Both the position numbers and the translations under genes were made by a program. 53,875 bases of DNA, taken from IMG/VR virus record IMGVR_UViG_3300006803_000001, positions 1-53,875 of that record, one strand, 5' to 3'. The notes below the pieces were generated by a model. It did no database searches. It had not been told where the DNA came from and saw only the letters and a list, made by a program, of their open reading frames with translations. Below, piece after piece: positions 12,922 to 41,622 of the stretch; position 1 is the first letter of the stretch; the number at the start of each line of letters is the position of its first letter. The stretch comes from a virus.

Positions 12922-13502
12922 CAATCTGACTCGTCGGTTTGGTCAATGAACTCGGGAACCTCTGACTCGTTTTTGTGTATGATGGTGATCGGCGGCATTG
13001 TGGTGACTAGCGGTTTCCCGTCGGCTCCTGTCATTTCCATTTTGTTACGATCTCCCCACCTGTCAGAATAGCGCCTTTTGAGTATCTCCATTTTTGCACG
13101 CCAATCGGTGTCGCTTGCCACTTGCTCGACAAGCATGACCTCGTTGTCCGCTTCGGCGTGTTCGATCGCGTCGAGAAATTGGGTGTATATTGACTCGATG
13201 TCCTCGTCCCTCTCTTTTTGTCCGCGTTCTTTCCATCCGAAAAATGATCGGTATGAGACTCGAGCTCTGCCGCATGCTGCATTAACATATGAGCCCCCGC
13301 GTATTGATGCGCAAATGCTCTCAATCACCTCGATCGTCAATTCGGTTTTTCTTCCCGCTTTCCCCATGTGCTTGAGGTTGCCGCGCATTCGATACCAATT
13401 CAAGGTCAAAACGTCTGTCTCGTTCCTTCCGTGTTCGTCCTCGTTCCATTTAGGGACGGAAACCTCGCGCCCGCGTGGAGTGCGCAACTTTTGTCGAATC
13501 AC
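12921..13502 (-). CDS. terS: Terminase small subunit
   Basis: The core, from MGKAGRKTELTIEVIESICA, has an N-terminal helix-turn-helix (GSYVNAACGRARVSYRSFFG) and helical oligomerisation region typical of terminase small subunits, and terminates at the TerL start. Known role: recognise packaging DNA and regulate TerL. I give the GTG start at 13502, which overlaps the upstream stop (GTGA). An ATG at 13367 would yield a more usual 148-residue protein, and the N-terminal 45 residues are less convincing. Confidence 0.8.
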   Translation of the reverse strand: MIRQKLRTPRGREVSVPKWNEDEHGRNETDVLTLNWYRMRGNLKHMGKAGRKTELTIEVIESICASIRGGSYVNAACGRARVSYRSFFGWKERGQKERDEDIESIYTQFLDAIEHAEADNEVMLVEQVASDTDWRAKMEILKRRYSDRWGDRNKMEMTGADGKPLVTTMPPITIIHKNESEVPEFIDQTDESD

Positions 13503-14320
13503 TTTTCACGAATGATGCAAGGGACTGTGCGTTTCCAGTCAATCGAATGATGCAATCTTTTGTGGTTTGCGTTCATCATAGAGACTTGCACACTCGAGGG
13601 TTGCATTGTGACTGTGGTGAAGGATTTGACATATGTTCCATTTGCGTATGCCCCCGTCATCCCGCCCTTTTGTCTTTGTGTCTCTTTCTGGTTGATTGCA
13701 ATCACTGGAATTGTGAGGAATAGGTTTCCTCGGCTTCCCTCGAGTGTGTATGCGTTGACGTCTTCATTGATCCCGACGAATGTGAATTGTCGTTTCGGAG
13801 ACAGTATGAAACTATTCATGCATTTTCGTTTGTTGAATCTGTATTGTTTTTCGTTGTTCCATCCCCCGATGAAGTCTCCGTTCTGTGCCATTGCTACCGC
13901 TTTGCAATTTGTCGACTCATAGAATGCAATCATCATTTCGAATACCTTGTTCAAGTCTTTGATCAATGGCGTTCCTGTTGTGTCTGCGTATTTGTATGCA
14001 ATTTCGTAGTAATCGTCGTCAAGTTGTATGAAGTGATCGAGCCCCAGTTCTCGGGCAATGTCGAAACAAGCGTTTCTCGCGTGCACAATGACGTTGCGGT
14101 TGTCGAAGTTGTTCCCCTCGTCGCTGGCGTCTGCAATCGCTTTCTTGTCGAAGCAAATGACCTTGTCTCCGAATCTCTCTCGGTATTCGTCTGCGGTCTC
14201 GTCTTCGTCGTCAATGATGATGTAAACGTCCCCAGTGTATCCGCATTTTTCAAGGGTCTTGTATGTCAAGACGTTGTCGGCTCTGCCGTGTGAGAGAATG
14301 AATACGGCGTGCTTACTCAT
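13499..14320 (-). CDS. Glycosyltransferase-like protein (TAGT-type GT-A fold)
   Basis: A 273-residue protein starting KHAVFILSHGRADNVLTYKT, with IIIDDEDE near residue 36 and HFIQLDDDYYEI near residue 97. The pattern of an N-terminal S-x-GRA motif, an early acidic patch and a DDD/DxD metal-binding motif after an ARN segment fits GT-A glycosyltransferases, notably the phage TET-associated type that decorate hydroxymethylated DNA bases. No TET/JBP dioxygenase is visible in this genome, so the acceptor (base, protein or host glycan) is open. It sits between an unknown conserved gene and terS. Confidence 0.65.
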   Translation of the reverse strand: MSKHAVFILSHGRADNVLTYKTLEKCGYTGDVYIIIDDEDETADEYRERFGDKVICFDKKAIADASDEGNNFDNRNVIVHARNACFDIARELGLDHFIQLDDDYYEIAYKYADTTGTPLIKDLNKVFEMMIAFYESTNCKAVAMAQNGDFIGGWNNEKQYRFNKRKCMNSFILSPKRQFTFVGINEDVNAYTLEGSRGNLFLTIPVIAINQKETQRQKGGMTGAYANGTYVKSFTTVTMQPSSVQVSMMNANHKRLHHSIDWKRTVPCIIREK

Positions 14321-24960: not shown

Positions 24961-27876
24961 TTATGTTACGATAAGAGGTCTTTTGCTTTGTGATCCGTTT
25001 GTTGCGTCGGTTGTGAAAATATTCAAATACCTTGACCCTGTCACTCCTAAAACCTTAATGCGCAAAGTTCCGCTTTTTGGGTCGTTGTCGTCCTGCGGGA
25101 ACCATTGGTATTCGGCGACTCCAGTTGTTGGGGTCGACCCCGTGAAGTATTCCGTCCCGAGTGTCTGGTCGCTGAGTGTCGACGAGCCCGATTTGACTTG
25201 CACCCTCACCCCCATGTAATTTGCAACGACCCTCTCGTCGAATAGGTATTGCAATGACAGTGTGTTTTGTTGCTGTGTGAAGTGACGAGGTCTGATTCTG
25301 ACCTCCCATTCTCCGACGTTTTTGTCAATCTGCGCAAGGGTCATTTCCATTGGCTGTTGATATGCTGTGCCGATATTGACTATTGGCTGGATTGTCGAGT
25401 ATCCCCAGTCTCCCCGAATGCTCTTCCGAAGGAATTGCATTTCGACGTCTGTATTTGCGGGGAAGGTTTCAAGATCGAGCAAGTTTTCCCCCGCGCCGAT
25501 ATCGGGGAAGAAATACGCAATTGACGCGGCATTGTGGTCTTGCACTGGCGTCCCGTATGCCCCGCGCATAAATGCTTTCATTTCAATACCCGTCGCCGTC
25601 TCTATTGCATATCCGACTTGTATGATTTCGTCGTTGATAAAGATCAGAGACTCGAGCGTTGATGTGAGATAAGCAAAGTCGTCTGAGAGAAACTCAGTTC
25701 GGCTTGCCACTTCTGCAATTTTTGATCTTTGCCAAGCGTTTGCGACTGTGAATGCAATCGCTTGTTCTCTGAGAATGACGAGCGGACTCTTGTCGAGAGC
25801 GGCGTCGAGTGTCATCTTGTATGCTTGTGGCATGACGTCCGTCAAAAGCTCATTCCATTCGATCGCGTCAACGAGCCTGTTGTTTATGTCTACCCTGTAA
25901 AGGTTTTCGGTTTCGGCACTTAGTGCCATTAGTGCAAACGCATTCCCTTCTGACAAAGGTTTCGGCATGTCAATGATATCGAGACTTGCAATTTCCCCGG
26001 GATCCGTGAGGTCTGAGAAATCGTCGGCAAAATTCAAATCGTCATCCTCGAGAGTATCTCGTATTTCGTATGATGGTGTCGGCGTGATGAAGTCGCCGTC
26101 TGGGTATCCGACGAATGATGTCGCGTAATAGTCTTCGTGCAACGTGATCTCGATTCCTTCGGGGTCTTGATTTTCGTCGTTGATTTCAATCACTCTCCAA
26201 TAAGAAGTCGTAGGTTGACCGCCTGCAAAGTCATCAATGACCAATTGCACAAAGTCGCCCGGCTCAAGATCGGCGTTGAATCTTGTCATTGTCGCCGTAA
26301 GGTTTGCCGCTGGGTATGAAGACTCGCTCAAAAGTCTTTGGACTTGTTTCTCTGCTGTCTTCCTGTTTGAGAATGCAAGGAGATTTACCTCTCGGCTGTT
26401 GATCGTTCCAGCCATTTGTATTGAAGCGTTGTCCGTCGCTGAAACAACCTCTTTCATGAAGTTCTTTTCCCTGTTGATGAACTTCGCCCTCAACTCGTTG
26501 ACAGTCCCCGCCCAAGCTGGTCGTGTGAGTTTGATGTCGACAAGCATGTCTCTCGTCAATGTGATCATGGGGTCGTATGCCGTCGTTCGGTCAGTCATTG
26601 CCCGACATGTAATCAAGGCGCCTTTTGTGAACGTGTAGAGTTGGCAATGGTCACGCATCATCTCGACCGAGTCTGCCATTGCTGTTTGACGTCCTAAAGA
26701 AAAACTGACTCCGACGTTTTGTTCTGCGAAATGGTTTGCCGCCGACTTGAATGCTGCAACGTCAATCTTTGATGCGCTGAGTCCCCTTCCCCAAGTTCGA
26801 TTTGTCATTATCTCGTATACACATGCGGCGGGGTTTGCCTCAACGTATGCAGGATGCGACGGGTTGTAACTGCCCCTTCTTGGGAATTCGGACTCGGGGA
26901 TTAAAGCAAGATTCTCGTCGATTGGTTTCGGCAACCTGTCGATCTCAAACATAATTGACCCCGGTCTCGGAGAGGATCCCATCAAATATTTCGGCATATG
27001 TGCAAAGCATATCCCTCGATGATTTGTTACGGCGCCCCCATAGCGATTGCCGGGCGACCTTTCTTGCAATTCGCTTCCGAAGTAAAGTTGCATTGCCCCT
27101 CCCTTTCTGTCGTCTCGCCTGCCCCCCGATACTTTGAAACTTGTATACCCTATTTCTTTGTCAATTGAAGTGAGGATTCCACCCCTGCCCCTAAAAAAGA
27201 AAGCCCTGTATAGATTATCCTCCTCTTCTTCGGGAATTTCGAGGGTTGCATTGATTCTGAACTCTTGATCGCCTGTAATTGCTGCAATGGTAAATGTCCC
27301 ATTATACCAAGTCGGGTCGACTCCCGCGATTTGAACCGATTGCCCAACTCTGAAAAAATGCAAGTCCGTGGTTCTGACTGTCATGTATGAGCCATTGTAA
27401 AAAGTGTAATCAAGGGAACTGATTAGATAATCCCCCTCTGATCGTTCACCTTGCCACATGACATGCTCGCCGGGGTTCGAGAGCACTTTTCGGACTTTGT
27501 CAATTTGACCGCAACAAATGCCGACGTCTTGTGTGATGTAATAGTTGTATCCTGTCGTCACCCTCTTTGATGAAAACAAGCCCGTCTTCACTTTTTGTGA
27601 AAGCGCCTGTGTAATAAATGAGTCCCTGTCCATTCGAATTACATTCGAAGGCAATCTCAACCTTCCAAAAACGATCGGGACGGGGGCGGCTTCGGTCACG
27701 CTTGATTCGTCAAGCTCGTCGGGTCTAGGCGGCTTTTGTTTCGCCTCCCCTCCAACAAGCATTTGTGTCAACGACATGAAAATTCCGCCGATTGCAAGTG
27801 CACTCATTGCCGAAAGACCCGCCCCGATTGCTGTCGCCCCTGCAAGTCCGCCAATGATAAAAGGTAATAAAAACAT
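24961..27876 (-). CDS. Tail-tip host-specificity protein (J/TipJ-like)
   Basis: A 971-residue protein. The N-terminus is hydrophobic and glycine-rich (FIIGGLAGATAIGAGLSAMS), then EAAPVPIVFGRLRLPSNVIR, the typical start of J-type tip attachment proteins. The middle and C-terminus are beta-rich. By family it forms the distal tail spike that contacts the receptor and lets DNA pass. It follows the NlpC/P60 gene, as in gene-transfer-agent and lambda-like tail-tip cassettes. Confidence 0.85.
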   Translation of the reverse strand: MFLLPFIIGGLAGATAIGAGLSAMSALAIGGIFMSLTQMLVGGEAKQKPPRPDELDESSVTEAAPVPIVFGRLRLPSNVIRMDRDSFITQALSQKVKTGLFSSKRVTTGYNYYITQDVGICCGQIDKVRKVLSNPGEHVMWQGERSEGDYLISSLDYTFYNGSYMTVRTTDLHFFRVGQSVQIAGVDPTWYNGTFTIAAITGDQEFRINATLEIPEEEEDNLYRAFFFRGRGGILTSIDKEIGYTSFKVSGGRRDDRKGGAMQLYFGSELQERSPGNRYGGAVTNHRGICFAHMPKYLMGSSPRPGSIMFEIDRLPKPIDENLALIPESEFPRRGSYNPSHPAYVEANPAACVYEIMTNRTWGRGLSASKIDVAAFKSAANHFAEQNVGVSFSLGRQTAMADSVEMMRDHCQLYTFTKGALITCRAMTDRTTAYDPMITLTRDMLVDIKLTRPAWAGTVNELRAKFINREKNFMKEVVSATDNASIQMAGTINSREVNLLAFSNRKTAEKQVQRLLSESSYPAANLTATMTRFNADLEPGDFVQLVIDDFAGGQPTTSYWRVIEINDENQDPEGIEITLHEDYYATSFVGYPDGDFITPTPSYEIRDTLEDDDLNFADDFSDLTDPGEIASLDIIDMPKPLSEGNAFALMALSAETENLYRVDINNRLVDAIEWNELLTDVMPQAYKMTLDAALDKSPLVILREQAIAFTVANAWQRSKIAEVASRTEFLSDDFAYLTSTLESLIFINDEIIQVGYAIETATGIEMKAFMRGAYGTPVQDHNAASIAYFFPDIGAGENLLDLETFPANTDVEMQFLRKSIRGDWGYSTIQPIVNIGTAYQQPMEMTLAQIDKNVGEWEVRIRPRHFTQQQNTLSLQYLFDERVVANYMGVRVQVKSGSSTLSDQTLGTEYFTGSTPTTGVAEYQWFPQDDNDPKSGTLRIKVLGVTGSRYLNIFTTDATNGSQSKRPLIVT

Positions 27877-27885
27877 ATTTCTTGA

Positions 27886-28359
27886 TTAAGTTTTGCGCAA
27901 ACTTGGAATTCGAACGTCCCTCGGATTTGTCTTGTATCCGCTTTTTGTCGGCATGTAAAATTCCAATATGTATCGAGACCATTTTTGTATCGGATCGGTC
28001 GTAAATTTTTGCCCCCTCATTGTGTGTGCAATTCCTTGATTTGTGATGATTCCGATGTGGCTTGCAAACGCCCCATTCTTGAAAATTGCAATTGCTCCCT
28101 CTTGCTCTTCGACTTTTTCGACGTGTAGTATTTTTTTGATATACTCTGACGCAACGCTAAATGTCGCAAGATGTCCCTCGGTTCGTCGATAATAAGTCTT
28201 GCCGCCGATGGTGCTGTCGACGACCCCTCCCTTTTTTAATAGGTAGAATGCCCCATACAAGCAATCTATTGCTTCCGACTTGTTCCACCCTCGCCACTTC
28301 CACGGAACCCCCTCGAGCTCCTGTGCGGCTTCTGATACGGCTTTGAGATCATACTCCAT
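27886..28359 (-). CDS. NlpC/P60-family tail peptidase
   Basis: A 157-residue protein. A likely catalytic cysteine lies in SEAIDCLYGAFYLL (about residue 33) and a histidine in FASHIGIITNQGIAH, in the order expected for NlpC/P60 cysteine peptidases of tail tips (lambda K-like), which locally cut peptidoglycan on infection or assist tip assembly. The ATG at 28359 overlaps the upstream gene by 11 bp. Confidence 0.75.
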   Translation of the reverse strand: MEYDLKAVSEAAQELEGVPWKWRGWNKSEAIDCLYGAFYLLKKGGVVDSTIGGKTYYRRTEGHLATFSVASEYIKKILHVEKVEEQEGAIAIFKNGAFASHIGIITNQGIAHTMRGQKFTTDPIQKWSRYILEFYMPTKSGYKTNPRDVRIPSLRKT

Positions 28360-29230
28360 GCTTGACCGAGTCTCTTGTCGGGACTTTCCAGAAACCCCCA
28401 AAGTTTGCGGCGTTGTTGAATCTGTTTTGACAGTCTTCGGTCGTGCGCCTGCAACCCGGGAGCAATCTCACTCCGTCCCCGACCTGTAAAGCGGGCAACC
28501 AATTGTTTGTGAAGAATTTGCGTCTTGTTGTTTGGACGTCAGTTGCTTTTACAATGGAAATTTTCACGCCAGTGATGTCATGAGACATTGTTCCGTATGC
28601 CCAAAAATCAGTCGTATTCACACGCCCTTCGACTGTGACTGTCCTGTTTGTTCTGTTAATTGCAACGACTGTCGCGTCGACCTTGTATGTGTCTGAGGAT
28701 ACATTGCAACCTGTCCCGAAGAGAACGTGATTGCATGTCCTTGTCCACCAAAAGCGAGGAACACTGAAATTCTGTGCGTATGCTTCTGGCACAAGGTCGG
28801 CGGTTGCAATGTCGTCGTCGAAAGTCATGTTCGTGACGACTCCCTCGGTGATGATTTTTGTATCGACTCCCCATTGGAGCAATTGAGGATTGTCCGCATA
28901 TGAACTTAAACGTATAATTGCAATGCGGATTTCTGCGGTAATACTGCTCAAAAACAATGTGCCGAAATCGGTGTTGTTTTTGGGAACCATTACTTGCACC
29001 CCAGATTCCTCGAACTCTCTCGATTTTTTCTGTCCTGCATGTGCGACGGGAACCGATGCAAAGGTTCTAGTCCCCCCAAGCTCTTCGGCTGGCATGTTTG
29101 TGATGGTGACGTCTTCGTCCGCTCCCGTGTAAAAGACTTTTGTCCCTTTTGCTTTGTCGGTGAAAATATAGCAATACCTTGCGGTTGTTGCTGGCGAACT
29201 ATTGAACGCAATGCTTGTTTCGTCTGCCAT
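28349..29230 (-). CDS. Tail-tip protein with DUF2163/phage BR0599 domains
   Basis: A 293-residue protein. The C-terminal motif CRRTTEDCQNRFNNAANFGG is the signature of the BR0599 domain, and the N-terminal half fits DUF2163. In gene-transfer agents and related siphophages this protein precedes the NlpC/P60 peptidase and the J-like protein, the order seen here. Further cysteines (RTCNHVLFGTGC) may bind metal, consistent with the lambda L-type Fe-S role, though that is inference. Confidence 0.85.
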   Translation of the reverse strand: MADETSIAFNSSPATTARYCYIFTDKAKGTKVFYTGADEDVTITNMPAEELGGTRTFASVPVAHAGQKKSREFEESGVQVMVPKNNTDFGTLFLSSITAEIRIAIIRLSSYADNPQLLQWGVDTKIITEGVVTNMTFDDDIATADLVPEAYAQNFSVPRFWWTRTCNHVLFGTGCNVSSDTYKVDATVVAINRTNRTVTVEGRVNTTDFWAYGTMSHDITGVKISIVKATDVQTTRRKFFTNNWLPALQVGDGVRLLPGCRRTTEDCQNRFNNAANFGGFWKVPTRDSVKHGV

Positions 29231-29234
29231 GATA

Positions 29235-31019
29235 TTAGTCTTCTAGGGTTCGGAACATTTTGATCGAGTAATTGAACGTCAATGTATACTCGCCCGTTTT
29301 CTTTTGTGGCTCATGGAACCACATAGAAAATACATGTTGTTTGTTCATGCCCCCCGAGAATCCATCCCATCCAACAAGAATTTGTTTAATGTTGTCGTAG
29401 TTAATTTCGCTGACGGAAAATGTTTTCGTGTAATAACTGGTAAAAGACCCCGGGACATATGTTTGCGATAAGTCCCTTGCTGTATCTGTTACATTATACG
29501 GGACGGGATTTGATCCGTTTGGAAAGCTTGGGTTTTGATAAAATCCGTTGTATATTCTTGTATCGTATCCTTGCACGTAAACCATAATCTGATTGCAATA
29601 TGACCCGCTTGTTTGGTGATCCATTTGCCCCGTGTATCTGCTGAATCCGCCCGCGTTGATGTCGGTTCCGAATATGTCGTTTGAGTAATATGTCGGTAAA
29701 AAGTGCATGCCGAATATGCCCTTATTGACAATCTCGCACAAATTGCTGTTCGTGATGACCCCTCCGTCTCCCGCTTCTGCAATACCACTCGGGATTGATA
29801 CTGTAATCGTATTGTTTGGCGCGTCAATTGCCGTGACTTCATACTCTCCGTTCCACCATGTTATCGGGTCAGCTTCTCGAATGGTTCCGCCGCTTCCCGA
29901 TCCCGCATTCAGTGCCGAGGTGATTGTGAGTGTTGTTGTTGTCGGAGTCGACGCAACTACCCATCCACCATTGTATGAGCTCGGTATCACTCCAAGGATT
30001 TCGACGTCGTCTCCTGTTGTCAATTGATGGTCGACGCTTGTCGTCAACGTGAACTCGGTCGCGGTGCTTGTAATTGATGCAATAGGTCTTTTGACCCTTT
30101 GGGCTCCCGAGATTATTACATTGCCCCCGACTTGGTAGTGATGCGAATCCCCAGCGCTTGGGGCGACTGTGATCTCTGCGGTTCCATCTCCGTTGTCGAC
30201 GATTCCTGCCGTATTGTATTCGACCGGCCAACCTGTGATGTCAAACGGGACATTGTCCGTCGGCGTGAAATCATATGTCGATGTCATTTGATATTTGAAA
30301 CCGAGTTGCTGACCCGGACCGAGAATGACGGGGTCGTCGAGAACAATTCGAGAGAATATCGGTTTGTTATAAAAGAGCCCGACGCCGAGCTCTGTGATTG
30401 TGTTGTTCTCTGTTTGCGCTGCGGTGAACAAGTATGATTGATGAAGAGTGACTCGCGGATAGTCTGTATCTGTCACGTCGACGACGTTATATTGAAAATA
30501 CTCTCCAATTGGGGGAGCCATTCGAGTTGAAGTGTATGCGACCAGTGAATCCAGCGCATCTCGTTTTGTGTTGTATACAGTGAGAGACGCGGGCGTTGTG
30601 ACTGTTTGCGATCTGTCAACTGTGACGACTGTGCCGCTGTTGACTGTGACAATTCTTGCCTCTTCGCCCGAGCCAAACTTGATCATATTGTCGACGTCGT
30701 TCCCGATGAAGTTTGCTGTCCCGCTCGATCTTGTGACTTGGTTTCCTGTTTGCGTATAAAGCGAGTTTGCTTTTGCCTCACTGTTGGGCGAGTTGCCCGT
30801 CCCGCAAAACCCGTATCGCATGAGTTGATCGAATGCGGAGCTTGCATTTGAGCTCACATAATCGTCAATCGCGGGGTTGAGTATTAGGTTTTTTTTCAAT
30901 CCAGATTCGTATGCAATTGTTCCGTCTTCATTCAATACATAGACTTGATACTTCCCGCCTCCGATTGTGGCGCTTCTCGACTGGTTTGCCTTTTCGGTCA
31001 CTTTGATTTCATTTTTCAT
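29235..31019 (-). CDS. Tail structural protein, triad A member 3 (594 aa)
   Basis: A 594-residue protein, paralogous to the gene at 33270-34994. Shared landmarks: KNLIL near the N-terminus, GTGNSPN, LDDPVxLGxGQQL, ITSxxTATEF, LNAGSGSGG (INAGSGSGG in the paralog), DPxTWWNG, and C-terminal QKK...YTL. Beta-rich with Ig-like spacing. It is probably a virion surface or tail decoration/fibre protein; exact role unknown. It overlaps the next upstream gene by 4 bp. Confidence 0.7.
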   Translation of the reverse strand: MKNEIKVTEKANQSRSATIGGGKYQVYVLNEDGTIAYESGLKKNLILNPAIDDYVSSNASSAFDQLMRYGFCGTGNSPNSEAKANSLYTQTGNQVTRSSGTANFIGNDVDNMIKFGSGEEARIVTVNSGTVVTVDRSQTVTTPASLTVYNTKRDALDSLVAYTSTRMAPPIGEYFQYNVVDVTDTDYPRVTLHQSYLFTAAQTENNTITELGVGLFYNKPIFSRIVLDDPVILGPGQQLGFKYQMTSTYDFTPTDNVPFDITGWPVEYNTAGIVDNGDGTAEITVAPSAGDSHHYQVGGNVIISGAQRVKRPIASITSTATEFTLTTSVDHQLTTGDDVEILGVIPSSYNGGWVVASTPTTTTLTITSALNAGSGSGGTIREADPITWWNGEYEVTAIDAPNNTITVSIPSGIAEAGDGGVITNSNLCEIVNKGIFGMHFLPTYYSNDIFGTDINAGGFSRYTGQMDHQTSGSYCNQIMVYVQGYDTRIYNGFYQNPSFPNGSNPVPYNVTDTARDLSQTYVPGSFTSYYTKTFSVSEINYDNIKQILVGWDGFSGGMNKQHVFSMWFHEPQKKTGEYTLTFNYSIKMFRTLED

Positions 31020-32695
31020 TGTAGTATGTATGCCCCGCCTGTTTGCTCGATTGCGCCCGCGGTGATGGATGTTTCGATTTGTTGTGGTAAATTTGGCTTC
31101 GCAAAGAAGTATGTTGATGCCTCCGCTTCTATATTGCCTTGCGTCTCGTCTTGAGAAAAATAACCGATTGGAGTTGGAGTCAAAAGAACGGCGCGGTATT
31201 CTCCCCCCGTTTGACTTATAAGACCAGACGTAATATTTGTTTCGATGAAATTTCCCGCATTAACAAGGATGGACAAATATTCCCCGCTGCTCTGCTCGAT
31301 CGAGCCCGACGTTCGGTTGGTTTCTATGATGTCGGTTTTGAGCAATGCCGCTTCGTAAACGCTTGTTACTTGCTCGATAATTCCCGAGCTTCTGTCGTTG
31401 AACAAAGGAATGATCGGAGTCACGTCGGCGACCCATGTTGCGAGGTTGTGAGTGACGTCGAGTCCATTGATCAAGAGCTCTCCCGCCGAAGCTTGAATAC
31501 TTGTCAGATAAAGCGGATTCACTGGGGAATTGCAAAGGAGATATTCGGTTGCGTATTCGCCGCCCGCAAATCGGACGAAAAGCTTTGCCTCTCCTCGTTT
31601 CAGATATATGCATGCGATGTCGGATTCTCCCGCAAAGACTGATCCGTCAATTGCCCATGTATTGATCATGAGAGGAGAGAACCCGTCGAATTTGGTGATT
31701 TGCAATTGTTGTAATTGCGAGTCGAAAAATCTGATTTCGACTTGCCCGTCGGTGAGACCTGCGCACAAATGCTCCCTACCTCCAATTGTAAAAGTCCCGT
31801 GTATGTGTGCCCCCTCGGGAGCTTGCCCGACATACCAATTCGAATAAAATGGGTCGACTCCTTCTGCTGAGAGTCTGACCCCTTGCAATGGCACGATCTC
31901 AATGAGCCAATCCTTTTGATGAGGGAAGGTTTGCCCCGTGATGTATTCTTCCGGTCCTTTGACTGTCGCCGTTTCGAATGTGAGTTTCTCCGATATTGGT
32001 AGAGGAGTTTGTCTCACTTCATTGACTTGGGGCATTGAGAAGACCTCCCCGAAATCAGTTCCTTCGATGAGCTCTGTCGAATCTTTCGGGAGCGTGTGCA
32101 ACGCTTCCTCCAGTTGCAATTCGAACTCGCATGAGTTTGGCGCTTTATGTCGAACGATAAATGTGTCGTTTGACTGCTTGGCAAAAATGCAAAACCCCGC
32201 GTATGTCCCCTCTTCAATCGGAAAAGGACTTTCACTTTCTAAGAGTATACCCGTATTACCTCCGACAAGGTTTGTCGCTTCGATTACCCGCGAGACGTGC
32301 AACTCCCGATTTCTTGAGTAAAACCAAGCAACTGTCCCGAACTTGTCGAGCTTGGTCGGATCAAGGTCAACGGCGTAATCAATGCCGACTTTGATTTCCA
32401 TATATCGAGCGCCCGCGGGCGCTGCATTGGCAACAATCAAATCTTGTGTCCATGAGGGGATATAAAAAGGATTCGACTTGCCTTGATTCCTTTTGATTAT
32501 CCGCTGCATATTGCGAACGTCCGCCGAGTTGGTGATCGTCCATTTGCCGAGGAACATTCTTTTTCCTCTTCTGTCGTAAATGCCGTATTTTTTTGCTGCC
32601 CCAAGAGCGATGTCTCGACGACCATCTGAAAAGCTCGAGACGGGAGGGGTCGAGAAATCGGGTGCAATTGTAAAAGTTGGATAAAACTCAATCAT
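31016..32695 (-). CDS. Tail structural protein, triad A member 2 (559 aa)
   Basis: A 559-residue protein, paralogous to 34991-36646 across its first about 430 residues (MIEFYP-x-FTIAPDFSTPP, NPFYIPSWTQD, DLDPTKLDKFGTVAWFYSR, AGFCIFAKQ, PNSCEFEL). The C-terminal 130 residues differ: they carry imperfect repeats of the form SGxIEQxxGxY with IETNxTSG, absent from the paralog. This pattern suggests a conserved virion-binding part and an exchangeable tip. Codons include one GCGCCCGCGGGCGC palindrome (32409-32422). Confidence 0.75.
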   Translation of the reverse strand: MIEFYPTFTIAPDFSTPPVSSFSDGRRDIALGAAKKYGIYDRRGKRMFLGKWTITNSADVRNMQRIIKRNQGKSNPFYIPSWTQDLIVANAAPAGARYMEIKVGIDYAVDLDPTKLDKFGTVAWFYSRNRELHVSRVIEATNLVGGNTGILLESESPFPIEEGTYAGFCIFAKQSNDTFIVRHKAPNSCEFELQLEEALHTLPKDSTELIEGTDFGEVFSMPQVNEVRQTPLPISEKLTFETATVKGPEEYITGQTFPHQKDWLIEIVPLQGVRLSAEGVDPFYSNWYVGQAPEGAHIHGTFTIGGREHLCAGLTDGQVEIRFFDSQLQQLQITKFDGFSPLMINTWAIDGSVFAGESDIACIYLKRGEAKLFVRFAGGEYATEYLLCNSPVNPLYLTSIQASAGELLINGLDVTHNLATWVADVTPIIPLFNDRSSGIIEQVTSVYEAALLKTDIIETNRTSGSIEQSSGEYLSILVNAGNFIETNITSGLISQTGGEYRAVLLTPTPIGYFSQDETQGNIEAEASTYFFAKPNLPQQIETSITAGAIEQTGGAYILQ

Positions 32696-33267
32696 ATTTC
32701 ATTGAATGTGAGGCTCTCTGACGACGCCCTCGTTTGTGTGATTGTCCTCGCCCCATTTGTGAGAGACAGGGTTCCGACTGCCGTTGGAAAGACCCAAGCG
32801 CCAAGCGGGAAAAGGGGCGCCGTCAAATCCTCTTCAAGCACAAGTCGCCTTCTCAAGTTTTGTATGTCCGTGACTGTTCGCCATGCCCCCCCCACTTGGT
32901 AATCATAGAGGTATATCCTTGAACCGATTGCAATTTCTGTCGGGACTCCGAAATCACAATTGATCTCGCCCTCGATTGTTTGCGGTATTCTTAGCGCGAC
33001 GCCGTGTCCCCAAAGAGGCATTTTGATAGGCTTGTATGCTTGTGCAACTCTGTTGAATGAAAGCTTTTCGTTGTCAGAATCGCTTGTCGTGTCTCGTTGG
33101 AACCTGTAGGAATTTCGAACTCTCGACCTGTGACGGACTGACTGATCCCATCCGCTCAATGAGGATATGATCGCCGTCTTGTATTCGTATATACACTCGA
33201 TTCCCGCCGCCCAATTTGGCAACAAGACAAGCTCTTCGGGTTGGTCGTATGTATTAGGATATGCCAT
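32692..33267 (-). CDS. Tail structural protein, triad A member 1 (191 aa)
   Basis: A 191-residue protein paralogous to 36643-37218, the same length. Identical blocks include DTTSDSDNEKLSFNR, MPLWGH, PQTIEGEI, EIAIGSRIY, AWRTVTDIQ and LEEDLTAPLFP. The ATG at 33267 lies 2 bp after the preceding stop. Its stop overlaps the start of member 2. Function unknown beyond a presumed structural role. Confidence 0.75.
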   Translation of the reverse strand: MAYPNTYDQPEELVLLPNWAAGIECIYEYKTAIISSLSGWDQSVRHRSRVRNSYRFQRDTTSDSDNEKLSFNRVAQAYKPIKMPLWGHGVALRIPQTIEGEINCDFGVPTEIAIGSRIYLYDYQVGGAWRTVTDIQNLRRRLVLEEDLTAPLFPLGAWVFPTAVGTLSLTNGARTITQTRASSESLTFNEI

Positions 33268-33269
33268 TT

Positions 33270-34994
33270 TTACACAAGCTCCCTTCCCCAATAGTATCGA
33301 ATCTTGAGCTCAAGCGTGTATGTGTTTTTCTTCTTTTGGGGCTGATTGAAGACGCACCACACTCCGCCGAATGTATTCATGTTGTTGCCATTTTTTCTGC
33401 CGAAAAGGATTGTTTGTATTCTGTCGCTGTTGTGTTCACTTACACTCAACGTCAATGTGTATTCCCTTTGATGAGACCCCGCGACATATGTTGACGATGT
33501 CATGTTTGGCTCGTATAATGAAACCAAACCCCCGATGTTTGCTGCTACTCCAAACCCGCCGATTGAGATTGGTTTTTGCTCGTAAAACATAACGTATGGC
33601 GAAAGAGTCGCCTCTGGTCTGTGCCGCCAAGTGTCAAAGGTGCTACCTGCACCCGGTATCTCTGCGTTTATAAAGTTTCCCGTGATGGGATTGGTCAACT
33701 CTGTGCTCGTTGAAACCGACAATGCAGGCATGGTCTTGTTGTATACAGTGCACCTTGCATCATTTTTCACAACGCCTCCGTCGCCTGCATCTTCACGTCC
33801 CGAGGTTGCGTCTATGGTGACTTGATTCGTTGCAATGGCTGTGACTGTGTGCGTGCCGTTCCACCATGTGACGGGGTCTGTATCTCTCACATTGCCCCCG
33901 CTGCCCGATCCTGCATTGATAGCGGACAATACGTCAAAGGTTGTTGTTGTTGGTGTTGTGTTGACGACCCATGTTGAATTGTATCCCGATGGAGTTGTCG
34001 CCTCAATGACGATCGAATCCCCCGCGCTGAATCCGTGCGCCGCGCTTGTTGTGACTGTGAACTCAGTCGCGGTGCTTATGATTGAAGTGATTGCAATTCT
34101 TGTCCGCACTGAATTTTCGATGATTATCTCGTCCCCGATTTGGTAGTGATGATCGTCTCCGACGTCGGGGGTCATTGTGACCAATGCCGTATCGTCACCA
34201 TTGTCGACGATGCTGTCTAAGTCATATTCAATTGCCCATCCTGCGATGTTGAGGTCAACATTGGTTTGCTCTGTCCAATCGCCGACCATAGTGACTGAAT
34301 AGGTTGCGGCTAGTTGCTGCCCCGCTCCAAGGACAACGGGGTCGTCGAGTAATACCCTCGAGTATAAAACTTCCCCTGCCGTCGTTCCCGATGCGATCCC
34401 CAGTTCCGTAATCGTATTGCCTTCAACGTCTGCAATGGAAAATAGACCCGTGCTATTGTAGACGTAGACAGGACGATCGGGGTCTGTTTGATAATCGAGC
34501 GTGCCAGTGTCCCCCTCTGGGGTCTCTGTTGTTGTTGACGCGAGCCAATTGTCCAAAAACTCGCGTTGCGTGTTGAATATTTTCAATCCTTGCGCCGTCA
34601 CTGACTGACTGACGTCGACTGTCACTTGTGTCCCGCTGTCCACGCTCAAGATTTTTCCCTGTTCGCCTGTTTCAAAGCGGAAAGCTTGATTCAAATCATT
34701 TGCAACAAAGACCGAGACTCCCGAGTCCCTTGTGACGACATTGCCCGTCTGCGAATATGTTGACGGATCCAAGTCTCGGAAATTTGGAGAGTTTCCCGTT
34801 CCTGCATGTATGGTTTGAAATAAGCCGCCTCCGGCGCCTACCAAAGACTTACTTGCAATCTGATCAAGACCGCTGTCGAGTATGAGGTTTTTTTGCCTTT
34901 GCTCCTTGATGACTTTGCCGTCCTCAATCACCTTGAGGGTAAACTCTCCCGAAAATGTGGTTTTTTTTGTGAGGTTTGTTGATTCTTGATTCAT
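33270..34994 (-). CDS. Tail structural protein, triad B member 3 (574 aa)
   Basis: A 574-residue paralog of 29235-31019, with the same landmarks (KNLIL, GTGNSPN, ITELG, LDDPVVLGAGQQL, INAGSGSGG, DPVTWWNG). Rich in threonine and in beta segments. It overlaps member 2 of its triad by 4 bp. Likely a virion surface protein. Confidence 0.7.
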   Translation of the reverse strand: MNQESTNLTKKTTFSGEFTLKVIEDGKVIKEQRQKNLILDSGLDQIASKSLVGAGGGLFQTIHAGTGNSPNFRDLDPSTYSQTGNVVTRDSGVSVFVANDLNQAFRFETGEQGKILSVDSGTQVTVDVSQSVTAQGLKIFNTQREFLDNWLASTTTETPEGDTGTLDYQTDPDRPVYVYNSTGLFSIADVEGNTITELGIASGTTAGEVLYSRVLLDDPVVLGAGQQLAATYSVTMVGDWTEQTNVDLNIAGWAIEYDLDSIVDNGDDTALVTMTPDVGDDHHYQIGDEIIIENSVRTRIAITSIISTATEFTVTTSAAHGFSAGDSIVIEATTPSGYNSTWVVNTTPTTTTFDVLSAINAGSGSGGNVRDTDPVTWWNGTHTVTAIATNQVTIDATSGREDAGDGGVVKNDARCTVYNKTMPALSVSTSTELTNPITGNFINAEIPGAGSTFDTWRHRPEATLSPYVMFYEQKPISIGGFGVAANIGGLVSLYEPNMTSSTYVAGSHQREYTLTLSVSEHNSDRIQTILFGRKNGNNMNTFGGVWCVFNQPQKKKNTYTLELKIRYYWGRELV

Positions 34995-36646
34995 GGTTGC
35001 TCTTGGTATGTTCCTGCAAAAGTTGATTTTTTAAGCTTTAGGTTTGCTTCGCAAAGGTATCTCGGAGTCGGTGGCGATGCAAAGAAATATGTCCCCTCTG
35101 TCGTTGTTTGCGGAAATTGCAGTGCACTGGGGTCGTCCCCTAGCGCGGCAAACAATGTCGGGTTGTAGCTTCCCGAGATGGTTGCATCTTTAAATGTCAG
35201 AAACGCTTCGTCATTTGCATTTGTTGGAATGAGTGTCGGGTTGTAGCTTCCCGAGATGGTCGCGTCTTTAAATGTCAGAAACGCTTCGTCATTTGCATTT
35301 GTTGGAATAAGTGATGGGGTATAGCTTCCAGAGATGGTCGATTTGCGCCACAAAAAACGATCGCCAATTCTCGGGGGGATTGGTGTCACCTCTCCGACCC
35401 AAGTCGTGAGGTTGTGTGTCACGTCAAGACCCTTGATCAATAGTTCTCCCGATATGACTTCGACTCCTGTCAGATACAATGGGTTGACGGGTGAATTGCA
35501 AAGGAGGTATTCTTGACTGTAGAACCCGCCGAAAAATCTGATATAAAGCTTTGCCTCTCCTCGCTTGAGGTAGACAACGCACATGTCCGCTTGTCCCGCC
35601 GTGATTGATGCGTCAACCGCCCAAGTATTGACCATGATCGGCGAAAAACCCTCGAAGGTCGCGACTCTTTTTGCAAGCGTTCCGTCTCTGAATTTCACTT
35701 CTATGTTCCCATTCGTGAGACCAATTGCAATGTGTTCTTTCGAGCTTAAATCAAAAAGACCATGAACATGTTCTCCCTCTGGGGCGGCGTCGTATAAATC
35801 TGAAAAGAATATATCCCCGCCGCTCTGCTTTAATTGAACCCCGCTTCCGTCTACGATCTCGAGCTCCCAATCTCTTTGGTGAGGGAATGTTTGTTGCAAG
35901 CTGTAGGCTTCCGGACCGACTATTTCTGCCGTTGTGAACGAAAGCTTTTCGCCAATGGGCAACGGCGTTTGCCGAGTCTTGACAACGGGAGGGTATGAAT
36001 TGATTGCTTGCCCCGATATAAGTTGCTCGCTTTGGTTTGGCAATGTGTGCAATGCCTCCTCGACTTGTAATTCGAACTCGCATGAGTTTGGCGCCTTGTA
36101 TACGATTTGAGTTTCGTCGTTCACCTGTTTTGCAAAAATGCAAAATCCTGCATACGTCCCTTCATCAATTGCAAAAGGTGTTTTTGTTTCGAGGACAATA
36201 TCAGTTGTTGAGCCCCCAGCGCTTGAGGCTGAAATCACTCGAGAGACATGCAATTCTCTGTCGCGGCTATAAAACCATGCAACTGTGCCGAACTTGTCGA
36301 GTTTTGTCGGATCAAGGTCAACCGCGTAATCAACGCCGACGATGATATTCAACGCAACCGCGCCCGCGGGCGCTGCATTTGCAATAATGAAGTCTTGTGT
36401 CCATGACGGAATGTAAAACGGATTTGCGATTCCTTGATTTTTCAACAAGAATTCACGCAAGATTCTTTCGTCTGCCCCGTTGGTCAATGTCCATTTTGCG
36501 TTCATTGAACGGCGACCGCGGCTGTCATATATGCCATACCTTTGCGTTGCTCCGAGCTCGAGGTCTCGCCGCCCGTCCGTGAACGTAAAAACAGGAGGGG
36601 TCGAGAAATCGGGAGCGATTGTAAATACTGGATAAAACTCAATCAT
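34991..36646 (-). CDS. Tail structural protein, triad B member 2 (551 aa)
   Basis: A 551-residue paralog of 31016-32695. The C-terminal region is built from 26-residue tandem repeats (TISGSYNPTLIPTNANDEAF...) encoded by a 78-bp DNA repeat, unlike the IEQ repeats of its paralog. The last segment (YFFASPPTPRYLCEANLKLK) loosely corresponds to the paralog's YFFAKPN. Carries a GCGCCCGCGGGCGC palindrome in codons (36360-36373) at the position equivalent to the paralog's. Confidence 0.75.
   Translation of the reverse strand: MIEFYPVFTIAPDFSTPPVFTFTDGRRDLELGATQRYGIYDSRGRRSMNAKWTLTNGADERILREFLLKNQGIANPFYIPSWTQDFIIANAAPAGAVALNIIVGVDYAVDLDPTKLDKFGTVAWFYSRDRELHVSRVISASSAGGSTTDIVLETKTPFAIDEGTYAGFCIFAKQVNDETQIVYKAPNSCEFELQVEEALHTLPNQSEQLISGQAINSYPPVVKTRQTPLPIGEKLSFTTAEIVGPEAYSLQQTFPHQRDWELEIVDGSGVQLKQSGGDIFFSDLYDAAPEGEHVHGLFDLSSKEHIAIGLTNGNIEVKFRDGTLAKRVATFEGFSPIMVNTWAVDASITAGQADMCVVYLKRGEAKLYIRFFGGFYSQEYLLCNSPVNPLYLTGVEVISGELLIKGLDVTHNLTTWVGEVTPIPPRIGDRFLWRKSTISGSYTPSLIPTNANDEAFLTFKDATISGSYNPTLIPTNANDEAFLTFKDATISGSYNPTLFAALGDDPSALQFPQTTTEGTYFFASPPTPRYLCEANLKLKKSTFAGTYQEQP
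35168..35330 (-). repeat. 78-bp tandem repeat within a structural gene
   Basis: The block starting GCTTCCCGAGATGG on the plus strand begins at 35168, again at 35246, and with slight divergence at 35324, an exact 78-bp (26-codon) period. The first two units are nearly identical, which suggests recent expansion. Confidence 0.85.
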
Positions 36647-37218
36647 ATTTCATTGAATGACAATCTTTCCATTGACGCCCGTGTTTGAGTCAGTGTTCGA
36701 GCCCCAGACTCGAGAGACAGTGTCCCGACTGCTGTCGGAAAAACCCATGCCCCCGAGGGGAAAAGCGGCGCGGTCAAATCCTCTTCGAGTATGAGTCTAG
36801 TCCTTTGGGTTTGTATGTCCGTGACTGTTCGCCATGCGGCGCCGATTCGGTAATCATAAACGTATATTCTCGACCCGATTGCAATCTCTGCGGGAACCCC
36901 AATGTCGCAAAAGATTTCACCCTCGATTGTTTGAGGGAGTCTGACCTCTGTCGAATGACCCCAAAGAGGCATGCGCAAAGGCTTGAACGCTTGTGCAATT
37001 CTATTGAAAGAAAGCTTTTCGTTGTCAGAGTCGCTTGTCGTGTCCCTTGTAATTGTCCACGCGTTGCGGGGTCTCGACCATTGTCTGACGTTTTGCGTGT
37101 ATCCGCTCAACGCTTCGATTGACGATGTCTTGTAAGATATTGTCGATTGCACGCCTCCCGCCCAATTCGGCAAGAGTGCAAGCTCTTCGGCGTCATCGTA
37201 TGTATTTGGGTATGACAT
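36643..37218 (-). CDS. Tail structural protein, triad B member 1 (191 aa)
   Basis: A 191-residue paralog of 32692-33267. The ATG at 37218 is chosen over an adjacent TTG because it gives the same length and start (MSYPNTYD versus MAYPNTYD). It lies directly after the tape measure gene, the position where lambda-type phages encode distal tail or baseplate hub proteins. Confidence 0.75.
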   Translation of the reverse strand: MSYPNTYDDAEELALLPNWAGGVQSTISYKTSSIEALSGYTQNVRQWSRPRNAWTITRDTTSDSDNEKLSFNRIAQAFKPLRMPLWGHSTEVRLPQTIEGEIFCDIGVPAEIAIGSRIYVYDYRIGAAWRTVTDIQTQRTRLILEEDLTAPLFPSGAWVFPTAVGTLSLESGARTLTQTRASMERLSFNEI

Positions 37219-37224
37219 CAATCA

Positions 37225-39750
37225 TTATCCTTGGAAGGCTTGTTGAAACTTTTTGCGGTTTCTGGATATCACATTGAGAATGAGCCCGGGGTTGTTTGCA
37301 ATTTCTCTTTGCACCTCTCTCGGGTCAATCACATTGACGATTCGCATTTCCTGCTGTGGCGCTTGTTGTTGATTTTGAGTCGGTGCATTGGACTCGAGCA
37401 TTCCTTCCATGTCTCGGCGCTGTTTGCGGCTCAAGACCATTTCGCCTTTTTCTAAGACTGCGGGTATCTCGCTCGATGCAATTCCGCCTTTGTGGTATCT
37501 CTTGACTCCTGCGAATGCCGCGTTTGGCAGTGACCTTGTCGAGCCTCCCTCCGCTGCGCCTCCGCCGTGCCTTGTTGACACTGGAGTTGACGGGGCTCCC
37601 GGCTGTGGGGCGCCTCCGCTGATTGCTCGGATTGCCGCTCTCACTGCCATTTCGATGAGCAATTGCATGATGATTTTTAAGATGCCTTTGACGATTTGCT
37701 CTGCCAGTTGGGCGAACGCTTCCTTCGCGTCTTTCGCTCCTGTGATGACGTCGACCATTGTGTCTCGAAGTGCGGTCATTGAGCCCGCCGCAAGCTCGTC
37801 GATTTGCTGGTCAACGTCCCCCCATGCTTCGAGCAATCCCTCAACTTGACTGACCTCCTCTTCGGTATCTGACCCTTTCTTTTTGTCCTCTGGTTTGACT
37901 GGGTCTTGCTTTTCTCTCGGAACGAGACCCTCGATTGGTTTCTCGTATTGAGCATTAAATTGTCCTGCTAGTTCATCGGTTTTGCTCTGAAATTTCCCGA
38001 TTGCCGTTTGTGGGGGCGAAGGCTCAAAAGCCCCGAACATTGCGCCGCCCGCCTCTGGAATGCCTCCGAATGTTTGTGTCGGGTTTACTTGATTGAACAA
38101 ATCTCGCCTTTCCCCTGCTTGCTCCATAAATACTTGCCCAAGCGGCTTGGCTCCCTCTTTACCAATTTGAAGTGTTTTTTCAATGTTTCTGCGAAGGTCG
38201 TCGAGCGGCGTCTCGTCAATTTCCAGTTTGATAAATCCGCCTCCCCCCATCCAAGAGGGCAATTTACTCGCCATTTCATTGACGATATGCTTGACGAAGT
38301 TAAGAGCTAGTTGTTTGAACATGGCTTCGATCCAACTTCGCACGGGAATGAAACCATCTCCGAATGTTCCCCAGAAATCCAAGATTACGTCTTTTAAACG
38401 GCGAATCATGTATACACTCAAAGTGTCAATCGCCGCGCCTCCTAATATGTAAAGCTCTTTACCGAAGAATTCTGCCGCCGCTGCAAGTCCGAGTCTTGCA
38501 TAATCAATCATGCCTTTAAGACCCTCTTCCTTGCCTGTCATGTAAAGAGCCTTGATTGCATTGCCTATCGCCTCTCCTGTGGCTTGGGCGTATGGTAAGA
38601 GCTCGTCAATCAATTGCTGTATCTCGACGAGAACAGGCTTGAGTGCATTCATGATTGGCTTGGCAAACTCCGACAAGAGATATTTCCATTTGCCGTCTAT
38701 GGTCGAAATTAATCCGTTCCAAGTCATCGAGGACGCCATGAGCATTTCTGAATATTTGCCAAGGTCTTTTGTGACGATTTTCCACATGTCCGCTTGAGAC
38801 GCTCCCGCCGCTGAGAGCTTTTTGATCTCGGCTCCCGCGTTCTGACTCAATACGGGAATTTCAACCATCAATCGACGCAATGCTTCCCCGTCTGGTTTGC
38901 CCATCGCTAAGGATGCATAAAGTCTGCCGAAGGTTGAAGTCACTTCCTCGAGAGGTCTGTTTGCAATCTTGGATGCCGCGCCGATAAGTTTGAGGTTTTC
39001 GTTTGTGTCAAAGTCTTCCCCGCCTGCGGCATACAAAAGCTTGCTTGCCCCGATGACCTCAGTTGGTGAAAATGGAGTTTCATTTGAGAACTGGACAAGT
39101 TCCCCCATCCTTTTCTCGGCGGCGTCCATGTCCCCCATCATAAACGAGAGTTGCAATCTTGCATCCTCGAGTTGCGCTGCAATTGGAAGTCCTGCTTTAA
39201 ATGCTTTATAAAGTCCGCCGACCGCTGCAAATGCGATTGTCGCTCCCGCTGCCAATGCTGCAAGGGCGACAATGATCAATCCGATTGTTCCAAGGATTGC
39301 AACTAAGGGAATTGCCGCGGCTGTTGTTGATGCTGCGAGTGCTGTCATCCCCCCAGAGGCTCCCATTGCTGAATTACCAAGAGCCCCGACCCCCGCTGAC
39401 GTGACGCTTGCTGTGCCTGCAATGCCTGTCATGCTATTGCGAAGACCAGAAAGTCCGCCGATGAATGATCTTGTCCGATTCACAAGGCGCCCGAATTTGC
39501 CTTCCATCACGCCCGCGCCGTCTGCTACGTTTAGCAGTGACCCCGACATTGATGCGAGCCCTCCTCGGCTCTTCTGTGCCGCTTGTCCGAGCTTTGCCGC
39601 TGACCTCGATGCCTTGGTCGCGTTCTTGTCTAGTTTCGGGAGGCTTTTTGATGCGGCATTGCCGACGCCTGCAAGACCCTTTCCTATTTTGTCTAATTCT
39701 GAAACGGCTTGTTTTCCGTCGACTTTGACTCCTAGTGTGGCGATATCCAT
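37225..39750 (-). CDS. Tail tape measure protein
   Basis: An 841-residue protein. The N-terminus is alanine/lysine-rich and helical, a long hydrophobic glycine/alanine region lies near residues 130-170, and the tape-measure domain includes FGRLYASLAMGKPDGEALRR near 250-270. A central segment has aromatic membrane-like helices, and the C-terminus is P/Q-rich. At about 0.15 nm per residue, the usual siphophage ratio, it predicts a tail of roughly 125 nm. It follows the chaperone genes, as in other siphophages. Confidence 0.9.
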   Translation of the reverse strand: MDIATLGVKVDGKQAVSELDKIGKGLAGVGNAASKSLPKLDKNATKASRSAAKLGQAAQKSRGGLASMSGSLLNVADGAGVMEGKFGRLVNRTRSFIGGLSGLRNSMTGIAGTASVTSAGVGALGNSAMGASGGMTALAASTTAAAIPLVAILGTIGLIIVALAALAAGATIAFAAVGGLYKAFKAGLPIAAQLEDARLQLSFMMGDMDAAEKRMGELVQFSNETPFSPTEVIGASKLLYAAGGEDFDTNENLKLIGAASKIANRPLEEVTSTFGRLYASLAMGKPDGEALRRLMVEIPVLSQNAGAEIKKLSAAGASQADMWKIVTKDLGKYSEMLMASSMTWNGLISTIDGKWKYLLSEFAKPIMNALKPVLVEIQQLIDELLPYAQATGEAIGNAIKALYMTGKEEGLKGMIDYARLGLAAAAEFFGKELYILGGAAIDTLSVYMIRRLKDVILDFWGTFGDGFIPVRSWIEAMFKQLALNFVKHIVNEMASKLPSWMGGGGFIKLEIDETPLDDLRRNIEKTLQIGKEGAKPLGQVFMEQAGERRDLFNQVNPTQTFGGIPEAGGAMFGAFEPSPPQTAIGKFQSKTDELAGQFNAQYEKPIEGLVPREKQDPVKPEDKKKGSDTEEEVSQVEGLLEAWGDVDQQIDELAAGSMTALRDTMVDVITGAKDAKEAFAQLAEQIVKGILKIIMQLLIEMAVRAAIRAISGGAPQPGAPSTPVSTRHGGGAAEGGSTRSLPNAAFAGVKRYHKGGIASSEIPAVLEKGEMVLSRKQRRDMEGMLESNAPTQNQQQAPQQEMRIVNVIDPREVQREIANNPGLILNVISRNRKKFQQAFQG

Positions 39751-40470: not shown

Positions 40471-41622
40471 TTATTCGAAGATGTCAAATACGATTTGCGT
40501 GCCTGTGACGGGGTCTAGGATTGCTTGAATATCGGTGTTGACCATGACGTCAGAGTCAATCCCTTCAATGCTTGCACTTCCGCTCGGGAACTTGATTCTC
40601 GGCAAGTAAACCGAGATTGTCCGTCCTGCCGAGTCGGTGACTGTGAAGTCAATCGAGATGTCGTCATGATCGTCGACCTTTGTCAAAAAGTCATTGTTCT
40701 TGAAGTATGCATTCAAGCTTCCTGTGATCTCACAACGACCCATGCCGACGTCGAAGTTGCCTTCGTATGACAGGGCGTCTTTGCCTCTGAGGTTGTTTGC
40801 AATTTCGAGGGTCAAGGTTTTGAATCTCTCTGTTGATGCGGCGTCGTCGACTGCAAGGGTTCCCATGTTCGAGGTTCCGTTGAGGATGTCTCCGACTGGG
40901 GCGTTGGCGTATCCGTTCGAGTCAATGCTTGTGTTTGCCTTGACTCCAGTCAATCCAAGAAACGAAAGGGATCCCGTGATGATTGCCTTGCTCTCGATAT
41001 TGAGAGAAAGAGTATCCGCGACCATGCCGCTGAATTGCTGATAAAATTCCCCGCCTGTATTGTCGACGATCTTTTTCTCGATGGTCATGCTCTTGCGAGT
41101 CACTCCGTTGCGGATTGATTTGACTTTGATTGTGGCTGTATCTGATTCGTCTGAGTTGAATTGACCAGCAACGCATGTCAGTTCTGATCCGTCTCCGCTT
41201 ACTGCAACGACGCGCTTGACCCCGTTGTTGAGTGCGTCGGCTAGTCCGCTGACTTTAATTCCCGACCCGACCTTGACTGTTGAGAAGTCTCCCGCCGCTC
41301 CTGTGATAGTGCTCGAGCTCGCAACGACTGCAATTGCCCCCGTGAAATCGAGTGTGTCGTAATCGGCTTGCATTGCGTATTGCAACAAGTCGTCAAATTG
41401 TAAAACGGAAAGCTCAAAGTCCATTGATCCGCTTGCTTGGTTGTGAACTTTTGCAAGGTCTGGAATTTGGCGGTCGCTTCGAATCTCGTCCGATGTGATT
41501 GCTTCTTTTTCTGTGATGATGCTTTCGCCAGTCATGCGCAAAAGTTTGTATCCGTCTGTCGGAGGGGTTCCGAATGTTGTCTCGCCCGAATAAGCGAGAG
41601 ATGCTAAGTTTGAGTCACTCAT
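40471..41622 (-). CDS. Major tail tube protein
   Basis: A 383-residue protein, MSDSNLASLAYSGETTFGTP, with the start and beta-rich composition of the phage tail tube family that opens with SGETTFGT(P). An Ig-like insertion is likely (residues about 100-170). It precedes the chaperones and follows the tail terminator gene. Its leader (CAACAAACACAAAAATATG) is purely A/C-rich with no Shine-Dalgarno site. High expression is expected. Confidence 0.85.
   Translation of the reverse strand: MSDSNLASLAYSGETTFGTPPTDGYKLLRMTGESIITEKEAITSDEIRSDRQIPDLAKVHNQASGSMDFELSVLQFDDLLQYAMQADYDTLDFTGAIAVVASSSTITGAAGDFSTVKVGSGIKVSGLADALNNGVKRVVAVSGDGSELTCVAGQFNSDESDTATIKVKSIRNGVTRKSMTIEKKIVDNTGGEFYQQFSGMVADTLSLNIESKAIITGSLSFLGLTGVKANTSIDSNGYANAPVGDILNGTSNMGTLAVDDAASTERFKTLTLEIANNLRGKDALSYEGNFDVGMGRCEITGSLNAYFKNNDFLTKVDDHDDISIDFTVTDSAGRTISVYLPRIKFPSGSASIEGIDSDVMVNTDIQAILDPVTGTQIVFDIFE

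Follow-up and report, generated by a model that had tools for sequence, protein, structure and literature searches.

Two divergent copies of a predicted split distal tail protein and fiber cassette in a siphophage genome

In the Pseudomonas siphophage JBD30, the distal tail protein (DTP, gp49) is one chain with two tube-like domains, each accompanied by an OB domain and corresponding to the halves III+V and IV+VI; its trimer converts the sixfold tail to a threefold baseplate and, jointly with the adjoining upper baseplate protein, holds the fibers (PMC11445458). In phage Sf11, a C-terminal extension of the DTP (gp17), which forms a six-copy ring with a helical adaptor, docks a P22-like tailspike, gp13 (PMC12724387). 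A third point of comparison is the 'tail assembly protein' of Casjensviridae such as chi and Seifer (phrog_1082), encoded by one fused gene in single copy. Siphophage tails share the DTP ring as an adaptor, which is nearly always single: a DTP query of a phage collection found 670 places in 669 phage records, with only one record containing two. One DTP set per genome is the usual state, if not a strictly defining one, and the genome described here has two.

The window is the whole of IMG/VR virus record IMGVR_UViG_3300006803_000001 (positions 1–53,875; 53,875 nt). Since a perfect direct repeat of 123 nt is found at its ends (1–123 and 53753–53875), the window is probably a complete genome, either circularly assembled or terminally redundant. 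It carries a siphophage gene set with portal, terminase, capsid, a Phage_tube_2 tail tube, tape measure, a BR0599-type upper baseplate protein and hub. A first-pass annotation had described three genes of 191, 551/559 and 574/594 residues occurring twice in the same order, and all six open reading frames (ORFs) are located exactly where it had placed them (Table 1). The two triads, here named A-B-C, are tandemly arranged on the minus strand, with the tape measure gene on one side and the upper baseplate gene on the other. ATGA start-stop overlaps at the A/B and B/C junctions are retained in both, and only two bases separate C1 from A2.

Table 1. Features of the doubled region and of neighboring tail genes (positions in the window)
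Feature	Position	Strand	Description
A1	36643..37218	-	191 aa; predicted first DTP ring domain, triad 1; profile match to JBD30-type DTP domains III+V
B1	34991..36646	-	551 aa; predicted second DTP ring domain (aa 1-~200), extension (~200-430), five ~26-aa repeats (~431-551)
C1	33270..34994	-	574 aa; tail-fiber-like, triad 1; variable tip ~416-540; phrog_4176
A2	32692..33267	-	191 aa; predicted first DTP ring domain, triad 2; 72% identity to A1, same profile as A1
B2	31016..32695	-	559 aa; predicted second DTP ring domain, extension and repeats, triad 2; phrog_1082 E 3e-9
C2	29235..31019	-	594 aa; tail-fiber-like, triad 2; 43% identity to C1; end-to-end match to four-sequence C profile
Two 78-nt tandem units, 96% identical	35156..35311	-	in repeat tail of B1
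Tape measure protein	37225..39750	-	841 aa; PF20155 E 5e-10, slightly under curated cut-off; phrog_2335
Upper baseplate protein (JBD30 gp50 / BR0599 type)	28349..29230	-	293 aa; single copy; PF09356 E 3e-12; four-Cys site C166/C175/C260/C267
Baseplate hub (JBD30 gp53 type)	24961..27876	-	971 aa; single copy; PF13550 E 3e-16; phrog_1101
Major tail tube protein	40471..41622	-	PF18906 Phage_tube_2 E 2e-38

Our scans reached IMG/VR contigs of three lineages. The fragments L013 (3300007276_006039) and L014 (3300025887_002207) have exactly one triad each, in the order tape measure-A-B-C-upper baseplate protein, a count that covers this slot between the flanking genes only. The cassette is the same, with similar lengths and the same flanking genes, and the difference from the window is one cassette instead of two. 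The single-copy homologues that the first-pass annotation had proposed to look for are present in this slot. The case it had set against its own reading, that relatives would carry both triads as ancient, essential genes, is not what we found, as the two relatives covering the region carry one triad each. Because two related lineages have a single triad in the same slot, the doubled state is judged from these sequences to be derived. The window thus has two intact, divergent sets where known relatives have one. Four further IMG/VR contigs (L008–L011), from close relatives, encode a capsid protein 87–90% identical to that of the window, and searching them with the tail-region DNA gave no match. 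Early scans of viral contigs and genomes with P0002, A1, A2, A4, the upper baseplate protein and the hub were similarly without matches, as was a tblastn search of the phage collection with B1 and the C protein of L013. Literature searches, of incomplete coverage, found no doubled DTPs.

The identity of A and B emerged from profile comparisons. The phrog_1082 profile is matched by A at positions 512–676, weakly (E 0.04), and by B at positions 702–920 (E 5e-12 for B1), the latter in all four B proteins; A and B thus align to consecutive parts of one protein, which in Casjensviridae differs by its fused gene, its other N-terminal region and its single copy. We then aligned six DTPs (JBD30, Ruegeria DSS3-P1, Rhizobium RHph_X2_30, Stenotrophomonas Suzuki, Klebsiella Seifer and IMG/VR L020), divided the alignment at JBD30 residue 357 and compared the halves as profiles with hhalign. 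The four-protein A profile matched the first half (III+V; probability 94%, E 1e-7; shuffled control 0.2%) and B 1–240 matched the second (IV+VI; 98%, E 6e-13), whereas the cross-pairs were low (A against the second half 0.8%, B against the first half 18%; shuffled controls below 1.5%). A and residues ~1–200 of B are accordingly predicted to be a DTP split over two genes with its ring domains in order. Single-sequence comparison with the JBD30 DTP was not significant, with the register as expected, and the best match of A in PDB sequence searches, 8vjh_B 'Distal tail protein', was weak and non-significant (E 0.35–0.45). Membership in DUF2460 (PF09343) was not found, A1 scoring 15.6 bits against a curated cut-off of 30.4 and A2 having no match.

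The genomic setting agrees with that of a DTP, as A and B are encoded between the tape measure and the upper baseplate and hub genes. The upper baseplate protein is of the same four-Cys type as the neighbor of the JBD30 DTP, with cysteines at 166/175/260/267 and the same spacing as 147/156/238/245 in gp50, and the hub is 22% identical to gp53 over 333 aa (E 2e-9). In contrast to the single copy and single chain of JBD30, with fiber genes gp47/48 upstream, the window has a ring split over A and B, a B extension of ~350 aa, a fiber-like gene after it and the whole set doubled. A and B are separate overlapping ORFs in L013 and L014 as well, rather than the single chain of a standard DTP, and the split form is common to the relatives, not peculiar to the window phage. 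Beyond residue ~200, B consists of a stretch without a family match followed by a tail of about five ~26-aa repeats, whose layout, though not their sequence, is similar between the two copies and L013.

Gene C encodes a tail-fiber-like protein with a variable tip, for which host binding is predicted. The phrog_4176 'tail fiber protein' profile matched C1 (E 7e-18), with the best stretch at the N-terminus (residues 10–70), and was matched by three of the four C proteins, C2 being the one without a match. The middle segment was matched by phrog_9998 in all four, and the tips are only 23–32% identical among them. From its position and the parallel with Sf11, which is one of function and not of sequence, the extension of B with its repeats is the likely dock for C. 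AlphaFold models of B and C, made from two-sequence alignments, were unusable (pLDDT 27 and 33). The first-pass annotation had called the triad a structural module and suggested receptor-binding complexes; both labels fit a predicted split DTP with a fiber-like protein in each triad. Separately, a piece of the hub gene at 27250–27384 (45 residues) is similar to the C middle segment (E 8e-6).

How alike are the two copies? Used as a blastn query, triad 1 DNA finds triad 2 with E = 6e-174, which excludes chance similarity as a reading of the region, and with 72% identity over 1174 nt in the ring segments. Pairwise amino acid identity is 72% for A, 56% for B and 43% for C. Long conserved blocks had been reported for all three pairs, which holds for A, for B as far as ~430 and for C at ~250–415 (53%) but not for the end of B (26%) or the C tip (32%). 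Measured across lineages, C is 41.6% (about 42%) identical between the copies against 39.3–43.8% between lineages; the two fibers have diverged as far as those of different phage species or lineages. An assembly artefact was rejected because the copies are too different, and a pseudogene reading was rejected as well.

Intact reading frames and purifying selection characterize both copies, in line with the earlier description of two complete divergent copies. Pairwise dN/dS is well below 1 (NG86 dN and dS of 0.22 and 1.23 for A, 0.42 and 2.4 for B, 0.62 and 2.3 for C). Codon maximum likelihood gave dS of 1.6 for A and 2.0 for B 1–200 with omega of 0.12 and 0.11, dS being poorly determined or saturated outside these parts. 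The two copies have comparable numbers of changes found in one of them only (49 and 65, p 0.16), except that in B 1–200 copy 2 has changed more than copy 1 (14 versus 4, p 0.03), an unevenness that would also fit specialized, non-interchangeable rings. In that stretch the copy-1-unique changes are at 7, 20, 21 and 34 and the copy-2-unique ones at 36–195, a pattern noticed post hoc.

These data bear on the notion that the second triad is a redundant passenger without function that simply has not been lost yet. However, dS is ~1.6–2 even in the ring while frames have stayed open and amino acid change has been restrained, and one would expect a 4-kb copy serving no purpose to decay or be lost; we regard this explanation as extremely improbable. 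Somewhat more credible, if still quite improbable, is that one triad is used per virion at a time and the other is a reserve allele activated by recombination in the shared ring segment. The ring segments are the most alike in DNA and could serve as recombination arms, and the history of the region is visibly mosaic. Nevertheless, direct repeats that recombine would cause the loss of a triad and not a swap, both triads are intact overlapping ORFs in one string of genes, and the region is not enriched over shuffled sequence in promoter- or terminator-like sites.

The ring and fiber parts differ in history. In trees of A and of B 1–200 the two window copies group together (p-AU of alternatives 0.006–0.03), and the tree is unresolved for most of the remaining B and for C. 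Proportional branch lengths across regions were rejected (LRT 65.4, 16 df, p 6e-8); within C they were not (p 0.68), and A against B 1–200 was weakly uneven (p 0.017). We also scored codon identity at sites with the same amino acid against the expectation at saturation, using three phage lineages. In the ring part the copies share the codon at 156 of 268 sites (58%; 39% expected, z 6.9) as compared with 152/380 (40%; 38% expected, z 1.0) in the rest (Fisher p 5e-6, or p 0.003 against the well-aligned blocks B 201–430 and C 251–415 only). The boundaries (B at 200, C at 250 and 415) followed domain sense and were not set blind; the best single change point of silent identity is at B residue 123, and a second patch of raised identity lies at about B 316–424. 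Only 4 of 652 circular shifts matched the observed difference, and none of five between-species comparisons displayed the contrast. The ring part is therefore younger between the copies than most of the rest, having been copied, exchanged or homogenized more recently than the fiber parts. This is a clear case of ring and fiber parts of one cassette evolving on different schedules.

The first-pass annotation had proposed a tandem duplication of the whole module. The triad is indeed present twice, but the synonymous-site and branch-length tests make this account too simple. One in-place duplication of the whole triad after the L013/L014 split, with fast fiber divergence and no later exchange, would explain the grouping of the copies in the A and B 1–200 trees and the same order, lengths and overlaps in both triads. 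Silent sites are free of protein constraint, however, and still differ between ring and rest, and with the rejection of proportional branch lengths this origin is already disfavored and, in our estimate, very improbable. The data are compatible with a duplication followed by gene conversion and equally with the uptake, from a closer relative, of a cassette that carried a different fiber. At silent sites copy 1 is nearer to L013 than copy 2 is (43% versus 37%, p 0.04), which is not the case for L014 (p 0.31); the nearness to L013 is a weak hint of uptake.

Taken together, our preferred interpretation, which we hold to be evenly poised between right and wrong, is that the phage carries two distal-tail-ring and fiber cassettes, the second acquired by recombination and retained for a second fiber, with C1 and C2 on virions together or in varying amounts. 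Following JBD30, A and B would assemble as an (A-B)x3 ring beneath the last disc of the tail tube, whose major protein provides the surface that a DTP ring must bind, and the extension and repeats of B would, as in Sf11, likely dock C. Recombination in this lineage may have produced the second cassette, either through a duplication whose ring part afterwards underwent exchange or conversion or by bringing in the cassette of a related phage, and this cassette would have been kept for the second, different fiber that it puts on the tail. As hub and upper baseplate protein are single, both A/B sets would have to serve one hub, and most likely both fit the same tube and hub surfaces. Fibers C1 and C2, together or in varying proportions per virion, would then allow broader or hedged receptor use. 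That both sets reach the virion and give two fiber types is the likeliest reading of the sequence. The locus may thus encode two receptor-binding complexes or a mixed assembly, the two options that the first-pass annotation had put forward. A more specific version, a distal tail end of four different DTP subunits (A1, B1, A2, B2) in a mixed ring or two stacked rings, showing two very different fibers, is plausible but slightly more apt to be wrong than right; if true, it departs from the usual pattern, in which a tail has a single DTP set.

The main structural alternative to shared surfaces is a pair of stacked rings, each with a fixed role of its own: one A/B set would face the tail tube and the other the hub, and each would have its own fiber (e.g. 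for first contact and for firm binding). Whole A/B sets are doubled here, not B and C alone; DTP ring domains mimic the tube protein, which makes ring-on-ring stacking conceivable; and the post hoc split of unique changes in B 1–200 (copy 1 at 7–34, copy 2 at 36–195) points the same way. On the other hand, no significant excess of divergence between the copies was seen in the loops predicted to face the hub, as compared with the remaining ring (63% vs 72%, p 0.21), and we found no described siphophage with two DTP rings in a literature coverage that is incomplete. We consider stacked rings unlikely. Should both DTP-fiber sets be used, the locus would show how a symmetric ring takes a second fiber type, and two selected, partly homogenized sets would exemplify dual specificity gained without losing the old receptor.

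Several other features of the genome were observed. A 92-nt element occurs in five copies (8388, 9737, 11409, 16263 and 23619; 61–88% identical to the first). The first copy, on the minus strand, appears to run into a start codon (MNTNT...), and the element may act as a leader or promoter common to early genes. The gene at 13499–14320 encodes a TET-associated glycosyltransferase (PF20691, E 2e-34), which suggests glycosylated, hypermodified DNA. Finally, the segment 45058–48310, between the capsid and head-completion genes, encodes a BspA-type leucine-rich repeat protein (PF13306, E 7e-47), a DUF5050/LDL-receptor-repeat-like propeller (E 5e-17), with a similar propeller gene in L013, and a repeat-rich protein resembling a YadA head on visual inspection; these are possibly surface-binding head decorations.
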